Under the pieces are notes generated by a model. It worked only from the letters and a program-made list of their open reading frames with translations, did not search any database and had not been told where the DNA came from. A stretch of 64,000 nt of DNA from Streptantibioticus ferralitis. GTDB lineage: Bacteria; Actinomycetota; Actinomycetes; Streptomycetales; Streptomycetaceae. Each line of letters begins with the position of its first letter. The first letter of the stretch is position 1. Location: NCBI RefSeq assembly GCF_029223525.1, contig NZ_JARHTQ010000026.1:1-64000 (forward strand). Direction: 5' to 3'. The position numbers and the translations under genes were made by a program. Of this stretch, positions 37,630 to 42,333 are shown one piece after another.

Positions 37630-38139
37630 TCAGCCGCGCCTGCGCGAGACCAGGAACACCGCGGCGCAGACGGCGACCAGGGTGGCGGCAGCGGCGGCGC
37701 TCCAGAGCCAGACCGTGGGGCCGGATGACGAGTGGGTGGCGATGGCCGCCTTCGGGGCGGCGCCGTCCGGCACGGTCATGGTCGCCTCGCCACGGCCCAG
37801 CGCGGGAAAGCCGGACTCCACGCTGACCTTCCACCGCCCGGCGGGCAGTGCCTCGGCGGTGGTGAACGTCGCGGTGCCGCCCGGCACCTCCACCAGGCGC
37901 CACGGCCCTGCGGTCCGCCGGCCGTCGGCGGAGACCGCGCTGAGCGTCGCGGACAGGGTCTCGGTGACCGGATCGCCGTCGTTGTCCCAGCTGGCGACGG
38001 TCCGTACGTGTCCGCCGTCCTGGCCGCTGATCCGGAAGTCGATGGTGTCGCCGTGGGCGGCGGCGGACCCGGCGGTGCCGAGGACGACCGCCCCGCAGAG
38101 CGCGATCACGGCGGGCAGGGCGGCGAAGTGCTTACGCAT
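37630..38139 (-). CDS. Secreted, membrane-anchored protein of unknown function
   Basis: A 169-residue protein with a cleavable signal peptide (about residues 1-28, ending GSAAA before HGDTIDF), a beta-rich extracellular domain and a C-terminal membrane helix (about 143-165) followed by SRRRG. This gives a single-pass surface protein. It starts AHGD after cleavage, reminiscent of CopC-like or YtkA-like domains, but I cannot confirm a family. It lies downstream of the secreted metalloprotease gene, separated from it by a strong terminator. Confidence 0.68.
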   Translation of the reverse strand: MRKHFAALPAVIALCGAVVLGTAGSAAAHGDTIDFRISGQDGGHVRTVASWDNDGDPVTETLSATLSAVSADGRRTAGPWRLVEVPGGTATFTTAEALPAGRWKVSVESGFPALGRGEATMTVPDGAAPKAAIATHSSSGPTVWLWSAAAAATLVAVCAAVFLVSRRRG

Positions 38140-40420: not shown

Positions 40421-42226
40421 TCACAGCCGCGTTCCGAAGTCCTGGGTCCACCAGGGGCCGCCGGAGCCGTAGTCGACCCCGATGCCGACCTCCTGCAAAG
40501 AGCAGTTGAGGATGTTCGCCCGGTGCCCCGGGCTGTGCATCCACTCGTCCATCACCTGGGCCGGGCCCTGCTGCCCGTAGGCGATGTTCTCCGCGTAGGC
40601 GCTCCACTGGTATCCGGCGGCGGTGATGCGGTCGCCTGGACCGGCGCCGTCCGGGTTGGTGTGGTCGAAGAAGTGGCGGGCGGACATGTCGTCGGACTGC
40701 CGCTGGGCCGCGGTCTGCAGCGCGTTGTTCATGCGCAGCGGCGCGCAACCGTGTTGCCCGCGTGCGGCGTTGAGCAGGTACAGCACCTGCTGCTGGACGG
40801 TCGGCGGCGGCGCCGTGGTGGGGCGCGGGCGGGGGCGGGGTGCGACGGGCCGGTGGGTCGGCGGCTTCGCCGTCCTGGTGGGCCGCGGGGTCGGGGTGGG
40901 GCTGGGGGAGAGGGAGACGGCGGGCGGCGGTGTGGTCCGCGCGGCGGCCACGGGAGCGGCCGGGGCCGGATCATCCGGCGCCACTGTGAAGTACAGGGCC
41001 CCCGCGAGAACGGCCGCCGCGGCCGCGCCCGCGACCCGCGGCCGGTTGCCGAACCGCCGCCGCCCGTGCCGGCCGGACGGCCGCCGGGGCGCGTCCGCCG
41101 AGTGCCGTCCGGCGCTGTGATGACCCGCGGCCGGACCCGGGTTGGCGGCGGCGCCGCCGTGGCCGCCCGTGCTCTGGGCGGGGATGCTGTGCGGCTGGCC
41201 GGTAGCGGCTGGGCCGTGGCCGGTGGCGTGCGGGGTGCCGGTGGGGTGCTGCCAGGGCGGGGTGGCGTGGCTGGGTGCCTGGGTGTTGCCGAATGCGTGG
41301 GTGGCGGCTGCGTGGCCGCCGGCCATGTGCCCGCTCGCGCCGTGGGCGCCCGCGCCGTGCCCCGCAGTTCCGCTGTGTCCCGCGGTCCCGCTGTGTCCCG
41401 CGGTCCCGCTGTGTCCGGTGGCCGCGTGGAGGGCCGAGGGTATCGCCCCGCCGCCCGCGGCCAGGCCGGCCGGTAGCGGGAGGAGCGCACAGCCGACCAG
41501 GAGGCCCTCGGCGGGGACCAGATCGGTCCACTGGCCGCAGCAGGCCGCGCACTCGCGGGTGTGGCGGGCTATTCGCTTGCGCCACAGGGCGCTGGGCGCG
41601 CCGTCCCAAGCCGCCGTGACCAGATCCAACTCCGTGCAGCGCGGTACCGCCCACAGAGCGCGGACCACCACACGGGCGGTCTCCAACTGGGCCTTCATCC
41701 GCTGGATCCGTACCGCGGCATGCTGCGGGGAGAGCTCCAGCGCGATGGCCACCTCCGCGCGGGTCAGCTCCCCGGCGGCCTCCAGCCACCACAGCGACAG
41801 CAGCGCGCGGTCGTCGGCGTCCAGCCAGCGGGTCGCCTCGGCGACCTGGCGCCGCTGGCCGGACAGTCCCAGCCGCACGATGGTCAGATCCACGAAGTCC
41901 GCGCCGGGGTCGGCCACATCAAGGGCGTCGTCCAAGCCGCCACCGGTGGAGCCGAGTTGCCGGAACCGCCAGTTCCGGCGCACCTGGTTCATCGCGATGG
42001 CCACCAGCCACGACCTGAAGCACGCCGGATCACGCAGCCCGGCGAGCCCGTCGATCATGTGGAGCATGGTCTCCTGCACCACATCGTCGACGTCCGGGTG
42101 ACCGTTGAGCGCCCGGCCGACGACGTTGTACACCAACGGCAGGTACTCGGCGACGAGTTCGTCCTGCGCCCGAGGGTCCCCGCTCTGCGCCGCCACCACG
42201 GTGGTGGCCCCCCGTGTGTTCTCCAC
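40421..42226 (-). CDS. Membrane-tethered sigma-70 family factor fused to a CAP/SCP domain
   Basis: A 601-residue fusion. Region 2 (about residues 22-88: LVAEYLPLVYNVVGRAL, VDDVVQETMLHMIDGL) and region 4 (about 125-190: LTRAEVAIALELSPQHAAVR) form an ECF-type sigma factor. Residues 222-230 (HTRECAACC) resemble the zinc motif of anti-sigma factors. A His-rich Gly/Ala/Ser segment (about 265-385) with three GHSGTA repeats follows, then Arg-rich residues and one membrane helix (about 398-415), a Pro/Thr-rich wall-spanning stretch and a CAP domain (about 476-601: ARHFFDHTNPDG, YAENIAYG, MHSPGHRANIL). The CAP domain would be outside the cell. GTG 42226 is used with GAAGAAGG upstream. It lies upstream of the metalloprotease gene on the same strand. 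Confidence 0.88.
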   Translation of the reverse strand: MENTRGATTVVAAQSGDPRAQDELVAEYLPLVYNVVGRALNGHPDVDDVVQETMLHMIDGLAGLRDPACFRSWLVAIAMNQVRRNWRFRQLGSTGGGLDDALDVADPGADFVDLTIVRLGLSGQRRQVAEATRWLDADDRALLSLWWLEAAGELTRAEVAIALELSPQHAAVRIQRMKAQLETARVVVRALWAVPRCTELDLVTAAWDGAPSALWRKRIARHTRECAACCGQWTDLVPAEGLLVGCALLPLPAGLAAGGGAIPSALHAATGHSGTAGHSGTAGHSGTAGHGAGAHGASGHMAGGHAAATHAFGNTQAPSHATPPWQHPTGTPHATGHGPAATGQPHSIPAQSTGGHGGAAANPGPAAGHHSAGRHSADAPRRPSGRHGRRRFGNRPRVAGAAAAAVLAGALYFTVAPDDPAPAAPVAAARTTPPPAVSLSPSPTPTPRPTRTAKPPTHRPVAPRPRPRPTTAPPPTVQQQVLYLLNAARGQHGCAPLRMNNALQTAAQRQSDDMSARHFFDHTNPDGAGPGDRITAAGYQWSAYAENIAYGQQGPAQVMDEWMHSPGHRANILNCSLQEVGIGVDYGSGGPWWTQDFGTRL

Positions 42227-42304
42227 GCCCGTCCACCTTCTTCCCCGGCCTCGCGGCCAACATCTCTCCGACACATGGGAGATCTGGTCAGCGGACCGGG
42301 ATAA

Positions 42305-42333
42305 CGGAAAACCGCCGAAGATTTTCTGGCGGG
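42305..42333 (-). terminator. Intrinsic terminator after the SDR gene
   Basis: On the minus strand, CCGCC pairs with GGCGG around an 11-base loop and is followed by TTTTCC. It begins just beyond the SDR stop, ahead of the sigma-CAP gene. Confidence 0.55.

Follow-up and report, generated by a model that had tools for sequence, protein, structure and literature searches.

A predicted one-protein transmembrane signaling system joining an ECF sigma factor to an extracellular CAP domain in Streptantibioticus ferralitis

Results

The sigma-CAP locus

The window analyzed in this study comprises 64,000 nucleotides, the start of contig NZ_JARHTQ010000026.1 of the soil actinomycete Streptantibioticus ferralitis. 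Its minus strand encodes a protein, here called sigma-CAP, in which an ECF sigma factor is fused to a zinc motif, a membrane helix and a CAP domain, and two genes for secreted proteins follow. The features are listed below; residue numbers refer to the 617-aa frame throughout.

42278..42305 (-), predicted autoregulatory promoter GTTATC-N17-TCTCC
40421..42226 (-), sigma-CAP coding sequence, 601 aa from GTG 42226; the open frame extends to 42274 (617 aa)
41678..42169 (-), ECF sigma factor regions 2 and 4, residues 36-199
41540..41638 (-), fused zinc anti-sigma-like motif C-x24-H-x3-C-x2-C, residues 213-245
41447..41503 (-), conserved hydrophobic segment LLVGxxLxPxP, residues 258-276
41036..41431 (-), His-rich disordered linker with tandem GHSGTA repeats, residues 282-413
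40979..41035 (-), single transmembrane helix, predicted N-in, residues 414-432
40799..40978 (-), Pro/Thr/Ser-rich stalk, predicted extracellular, disordered in the model
40436..40783 (-), predicted extracellular CAP domain, residues 498-613, with the cysteine pair C510/C591
38212..40344 (-), secreted metalloprotease-like protein (HExxH, fn3, ricin lectin)
37630..38139 (-), small secreted protein with a C-terminal anchor

The open frame runs from 42274 to 40421 without interruption. The initial annotation had described one continuous frame joining the sigma part, a zinc-like motif, a membrane helix and a CAP domain, and this description is confirmed by the frame itself, profile searches, the AlphaFold model and Foldseek comparisons. 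Its start at GTG 42226 is also upheld as the better candidate: this codon is preceded by the Shine-Dalgarno-like sequence GAAGAAGG and lies some 50 nt downstream of the predicted promoter, and the alternative GTG 42274 falls at, or even upstream of, the point where transcription is expected to begin (the -10 element of the conserved promoter ends at 42278).

The metalloprotease gene lies directly downstream, 77 nt from sigma-CAP, and is probably co-transcribed with it; the same gene follows sigma-CAP in seven loci, the window and six others. The small secreted protein, third in this conserved array, has no Pfam match. A diverged sigma-CAP paralog on contig 18 of the same genome, together with its relatives, adjoins a papain-family protease gene. 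We looked for a universal partner among the conserved neighbors and rejected the idea, as neighbors differ by clade.

Domain structure of the fusion protein

The sigma part matches Pfam Sigma70_r2 (E 7.5e-12) and, over residues 36-199, the NCBIfam profile sigma70-ECF TIGR02937 (61.8 bits against a cut-off of 42.9). Region 4 has no separate Pfam match in this protein; AlphaFold predicts confident helices at 127-208, and Foldseek finds that the sigma part resembles ECF sigma factors (1or7). Regions 2 and 4 are the only sigma regions present, as recognized from the start, and together with the sigma70-ECF match they define an ECF sigma factor. The AlphaFold model, built with 61 natural homologs, is confident for the helices of the sigma part, for the zinc region and for CAP, and shows disorder in between.

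The HxxxCxxC motif noted originally is present and turns out to be part of a larger set of four ligands, C213-x24-H238-x3-C242-x2-C245, invariant in 61 of 61 close and 50 of 50 more distant homologs and lying in a region confidently predicted to be helical. It has the H-x3-C-x2-C pattern with an upstream Cys/His ligand that defines zinc anti-sigma (ZAS) domains. Pfam zf-HC2 gave no match in sigma-CAP up to E 1; it is matched by two DUF642-ended ECF fusions of the same genome.

Beyond the zinc motif, the conserved segment at 258-276 contains prolines, has a weak insertion score and is followed by a strongly basic stretch; we judge it to be the probable end of the anti-sigma region and not a second membrane helix. 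The linker that follows is indeed rich in histidine (14%), as first described, but this property is not conserved (family median 3%), and the linker was rejected as a metal sensor for this reason. The single membrane helix of the initial annotation is borne out by hydropathy at 414-432 and by charge asymmetry, with a basic stretch before the helix and a slightly acidic one after it in 137 of 142 homologs, a pattern that places the N-terminus of sigma-CAP, by prediction, in the cytoplasm and the CAP domain outside the cell. A two-helix topology, in which 258-276 also spans the membrane and CAP lies inside, was rejected given the prolines and weak insertion of that segment, the basic residues that precede 414-432 and the pairing of cysteines described below.

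The C-terminal domain matches Pfam CAP PF00188 at 498-613 (E 6.7e-22, 79 bits against a cut-off of 21.1) and an NCBIfam YkwD-type CAP profile at 494-613. AlphaFold models a confident CAP fold at 493-617, and Foldseek matched it to bacterial CAP structures (4ifa, E 3.7e-7; a further match to 4ifa has E 8.8e-11), so that both fold and profile assign it to the CAP superfamily. Its cysteines covary perfectly in pairs, 510/591 being present in 50 aligned rows, 534/540 in 10 and neither in the CAP-less row; the replacement of one whole pair by the other is as expected of disulfides formed outside the cell. The His and Glu residues (H538, E562, E577, H584), earlier described as in place, are all present in the window protein, and H538, E562 and H584 are mostly conserved among aligned homologs, but E577 varies widely, and four homologs (L015, L020, L057, L059), all with the same downstream metalloprotease as in the window, have lost the set. 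Because these four keep the domain without its acid/His set, a binding role for CAP seems favored over an enzymatic one.

Distribution and exchangeable outer domains

A scan of GTDB genomes yielded 280 tblastn-confirmed relatives, of which 80 were retained; nearly all complete retained relatives carry CAP at the C-terminus. Orthologs of the contig-18 paralog occur in two congeners, and the unit of sigma factor and zinc motif was found in 111 of 148 genomes searched within the order. Viral contigs yielded no relatives. These data answer the concern that a frameshift or sequencing error had fused two genes, or that close relatives lack the fusion. We found no point in favor of such an artefact, and its probability is negligible, because the same fusion recurs in the paralog, in congeners and in scores of independent assemblies across most of the order. 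In four loci (L034, L038, L082, L192) the sigma-CAP frames are out of register at the end, apparently through frameshifts, pseudogene formation or assembly errors.

Among 50 family members, chosen with weight on distant ones, 18 end in CAP, eight in AbfB, six in Glyco_hydro_cc, three in GH99 and one in a ricin lectin, the C-terminal domain of the others being unassigned. In a FastTree phylogeny the types of outer domain mostly form clades on one chassis, and the ricin-ended member adjoins a CAP-ended one. We conclude from these sequence comparisons that the sigma/zinc/membrane unit is in all likelihood a chassis with an exchangeable C-terminal domain, CAP being the commonest.

The genome encodes three other one-protein ECF fusions, far away in the tree, which end in NPCBM (contig 30) or DUF642 (contigs 38 and 33). 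The DUF642 fusions (L203:779-2623 on contig 38 and L205:1287-3080 on contig 33) combine zf-HC2 with extracellular DUF642, and are distinct from both the ECF52-like NPCBM protein and sigma-CAP.

A conserved candidate promoter

Alignment of upstream regions gave the motif TTTCYGTTATC-N17/18-RTCTCC. Its core, GTTATC...TCTCC, precedes 89 of 155 homologs; the 3.2 Mb of locus DNA hold only some 100 matches in all (the loci are not all independent), and the spacing is only 17 (59 cases) or 18 (21 cases). The site upstream of sigma-CAP is the sole match in the window, where 0.01 would be expected. In the whole 8.8-Mb genome, the N17/18 spacing is found only before the two sigma-CAP genes, and 81 genomes of the family contain 161 matches versus 10 for the reversed pattern. 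Strict-pattern matches at C33 and C63 were set aside, as their spacings of 15 and 16 fall outside 17/18 and no obvious secreted target is present. The relaxed pattern GTYATC-N17/18-TCNCC proved too loose, with 71 matches in the genome, mostly GTCATC, versus 17 for the reversed control. The canonical ECF promoter (GGAAC...CGT) was found upstream of homologs in a handful of loci only and is not conserved.

We therefore predict GTTATC-N17/18-TCTCC to be the promoter recognized by the sigma factor of sigma-CAP itself, the pairing being deduced from position and conservation. The same motif might instead serve as the operator for another regulator, one that acts on the sigma gene as well, and such a reading would accommodate the finding that the strict motif is missing before many more distant homologs and one clade beside cellulase genes. 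We consider it quite unlikely, since the motif consists of two non-palindromic boxes that occur at 17/18 spacing only, at a near-constant distance to the start, and is tied to the sigma-CAP family in genomes that contain few other matches.

Predicted regulon

Candidate targets were sought in 60 regions downstream of motif matches, selected mostly from genomes with several hits; the examples come from related genera. Approximately 15 of these 60 regions run into sigma genes, seven into stand-alone CAP proteins (some like sigma-CAP minus its sigma part, others lipoproteins) and five into proteins 56-65% identical to the window metalloprotease. A homolog of the small secreted protein (L289) has its own promoter copy. 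Thus homologs of both window neighbors carry their own promoter copy where they are located elsewhere. The window metalloprotease has no such copy, and its predicted regulon membership rests on the probable co-transcription. Other genes below the motif encode an M9 collagenase, an M11-like peptidase, alginate lyase and thaumatin-family proteins, and some matches lead to unrelated genes or to no obvious gene. In three loci (L028, L031, L033) the stretch that separates sigma-CAP from its papain-like protease neighbor contains a second motif copy; no convincing copy was found at the papain-like protease gene beside the contig-18 paralog, and none within two mismatches at the stand-alone CAP gene of the same genome (C22).

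The predicted outputs appear to follow the type of sensor. In genus g12, where the sigma factor ends in Glyco_hydro_cc (in two g12 genomes it is cut by a contig end), the motif precedes nine of 13 thaumatin genes, whereas in CAP-sensor genomes it precedes CAP and protease genes and is absent at both thaumatin genes found in Kitasatospora-like genomes with a CAP-ended sigma. Proteins of the thaumatin-like and Glyco_hydro_cc (GH128) families are both known in connection with beta-1,3-glucan. Six g12 genomes (G177, G155, G200, G185, G206, G197) have thaumatin-family (PR-5-like) proteins of Streptomycetaceae under this same promoter of the sigma type.

Discussion

Our data favor, with a probability of about 0.7, a one-protein transmembrane signaling system, in which a membrane-held sigma factor is governed by a CAP reader, released by cleavage and directed to motif-driven genes for secreted proteins. 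In this model, the sigma factor would be kept at the membrane, its activity blocked by the zinc anti-sigma-like domain to which it is fused, while the CAP domain, borne outside on the stalk, would read an extracellular ligand. By analogy to ECF52 and RsgI, a signal would lead to cleavage of the protein within the membrane or close to it, and the zinc domain would be removed or degraded, freeing the sigma factor. Free sigma would then bind GTTATC-N17/18-TCTCC promoters, as predicted from their conservation, its own first, and the array of sigma-CAP, metalloprotease and small secreted protein would be amplified. In relatives it would also switch on stand-alone CAP proteins and other secreted enzymes, so that the family as a whole may be a chassis with a constant sigma/zinc/membrane unit and exchanged outer domains, each paired with a set of secreted outputs. 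The self-contained surface sensor proposed in the initial annotation is in agreement with the invariant zinc motif, the N-in charge pattern and the covarying CAP cysteine pairs; its further proposals, detection of a wall or extracellular signal by CAP and release of the sigma part by proteolysis, are retained here as putative steps.

The C-terminal part could instead be a tether or a displayed CAP protein, with control exerted mainly by transcription, phosphorylation or constitutive clipping. Little is known about the chemistry of bacterial CAP proteins, the layout of basic N-terminus, helix and stalk recurs in the closest stand-alone CAP proteins, and the ECF52 sigma factor SCO4117 is phosphorylated (PMC5826349). 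However, outer domains have been swapped between related sigma factors while the zinc motif stayed invariant, some CAP domains are retained despite the loss of the acid/His set, and outputs tracking the sensor type would be unexpected of a passive tether; we regard this explanation as unlikely.

Release might also occur by conformational change without proteolysis, an outside ligand or an inside zinc or redox change loosening the zinc domain while the sigma factor stays membrane-bound. The invariance of the four Cys/His ligands speaks for such a mechanism, and several zinc anti-sigma factors are redox sensors. On the other hand, the long disordered linkers would hinder mechanical coupling across the membrane, and a membrane-bound sigma factor would need to recruit RNA polymerase there, which makes this route similarly improbable next to release by cleavage.

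The layout of sigma-CAP has precedents, and in this respect the initial statement that no characterized example with a CAP sensor was known needs qualification: the CAP version does seem to be undescribed in the papers searched, but the one-component arrangement itself is known. Membrane-tethered ECF sigma factors with zinc and extracellular domains have been placed in ECF48, ECF52 and ECF53, groups with a predicted one-component design, and proteolytic release is the published expectation for them (PMC8999054). Only SCO4117 (ECF52) of Streptomyces coelicolor has been characterized among them, and there release is backed by a truncation experiment (PMC5826349). SCO4117 likewise combines an ECF sigma factor, zinc finger, membrane helix, Pro-rich stalk and extracellular domain in one protein, with release by proteolysis proposed and positive autoregulation suggested (PMC5826349). 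It differs in having a carbohydrate-binding module outside in place of CAP, and in its proposed promoter, CSGYN-17-SRHA (PMC5826349). Sigma-CAP thus has the zinc finger, membrane helix and Pro-rich stalk of ECF52 but not its extracellular carbohydrate-binding domain, and a very long branch separates it from the NPCBM-ended ECF52-like protein of its own genome, which served as the ECF52 comparator in the tree, and from the two DUF642-ended fusions.

ECF53 and ECF48 are likewise actinobacterial ECF groups with zinc-finger and membrane extensions of up to 400 residues, and domains of glycosyl hydrolase or carbohydrate-binding type occur in some ECF52/53 members, as in the CAP-less relatives described here (PMC8999054; PMC10766802). 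A CAP domain does not figure in the ECF53 and ECF48 descriptions with which we compared our protein (PMC8999054; PMC10766802); that sigma-CAP is an ECF53 member is our guess. In IutY of Pseudomonas putida (ECF243), a sigma factor is also fused to a membrane anti-sigma part and activated by regulated proteolysis, in the setting of Gram-negative siderophore signaling and with other domains (PMC8999054). YkwD/SCP-type CAP proteins (4ifa, TIGR02909) share the CAP fold and most residues with the outer domain of sigma-CAP; they are stand-alone secreted proteins with no attached sigma factor.

A functional parallel is offered by the SigI/RsgI systems of Clostridium thermocellum, where several paralogs have an outer domain (CBM, PA14, GH10) matched to secreted enzymes, are autoregulated and are cut within the membrane (PMC4711584, PMC12203970). 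The GH10 domain of RsgI6 resembles the xylanases under its control (PMC4711584), and the last processing that RsgI undergoes once it has been cleaved in the membrane has also been investigated (PMC12203970). Judging by predicted promoters, the sigma-CAP family would work like these systems, with matching of sensor to output and autoregulation, and yet is not a member of them: sigma and anti-sigma are separate proteins there, the sigma factor is of another type and the sensors bind polysaccharides (PMC4711584, PMC12203970). In the open-access literature searched, we found no published description of the CAP version, of the promoter or of a sensor-matched regulon.

Eukaryotic CAP proteins bind sterols and fatty acids (PMC10189770). 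It is conceivable, though very unlikely in our estimate, that the CAP domain senses eukaryotic, for example fungal, lipids or sterols, and that the family recognizes foreign cell surfaces and induces secreted relatives of plant defense proteins, with CAP (PR-1-like), thaumatin (PR-5-like), proteases and glycan lyases as its outputs. If true, a bacterial CAP domain acting as a lipid receptor that controls transcription would be new.

For most groups of ECF sigma factors that carry a fused membrane extension, neither the signal nor the promoter or regulon is known. This widespread family of actinobacterial proteins now has a precise predicted promoter, a short predicted target list and a natural series of sensor exchanges, so that reporter and domain-swap tests of what the sigma factor senses and controls become simple; bacterial CAP domains, still poorly understood in function, gain a likely receptor role.

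Several further arrangements were observed in relatives. In eight loci (L050, L051, L055, L063, L068, L070, L077, L087) a GH6 cellulase gene lies 46-123 nt upstream of sigma-CAP, with a GH48 gene and, in most loci, a GH10 gene further up. The usual promoter is absent from those loci of this cellulase-linked group that could be tested, and the sigma factor may possibly have been recruited into a cellulase operon. Secreted repeat proteins with an anchor-like C-terminal end are encoded 5-45 nt below the promoter in four loci (L299, L300, L302, L287). Finally, in four Kitasatospora-like loci (L245, L254, L256, L291) the promoter precedes the gene for a protein of about 300 aa, without a Pfam match and rich in MDHGM-type (Met/His) motifs, which is possibly a metal-handling output.
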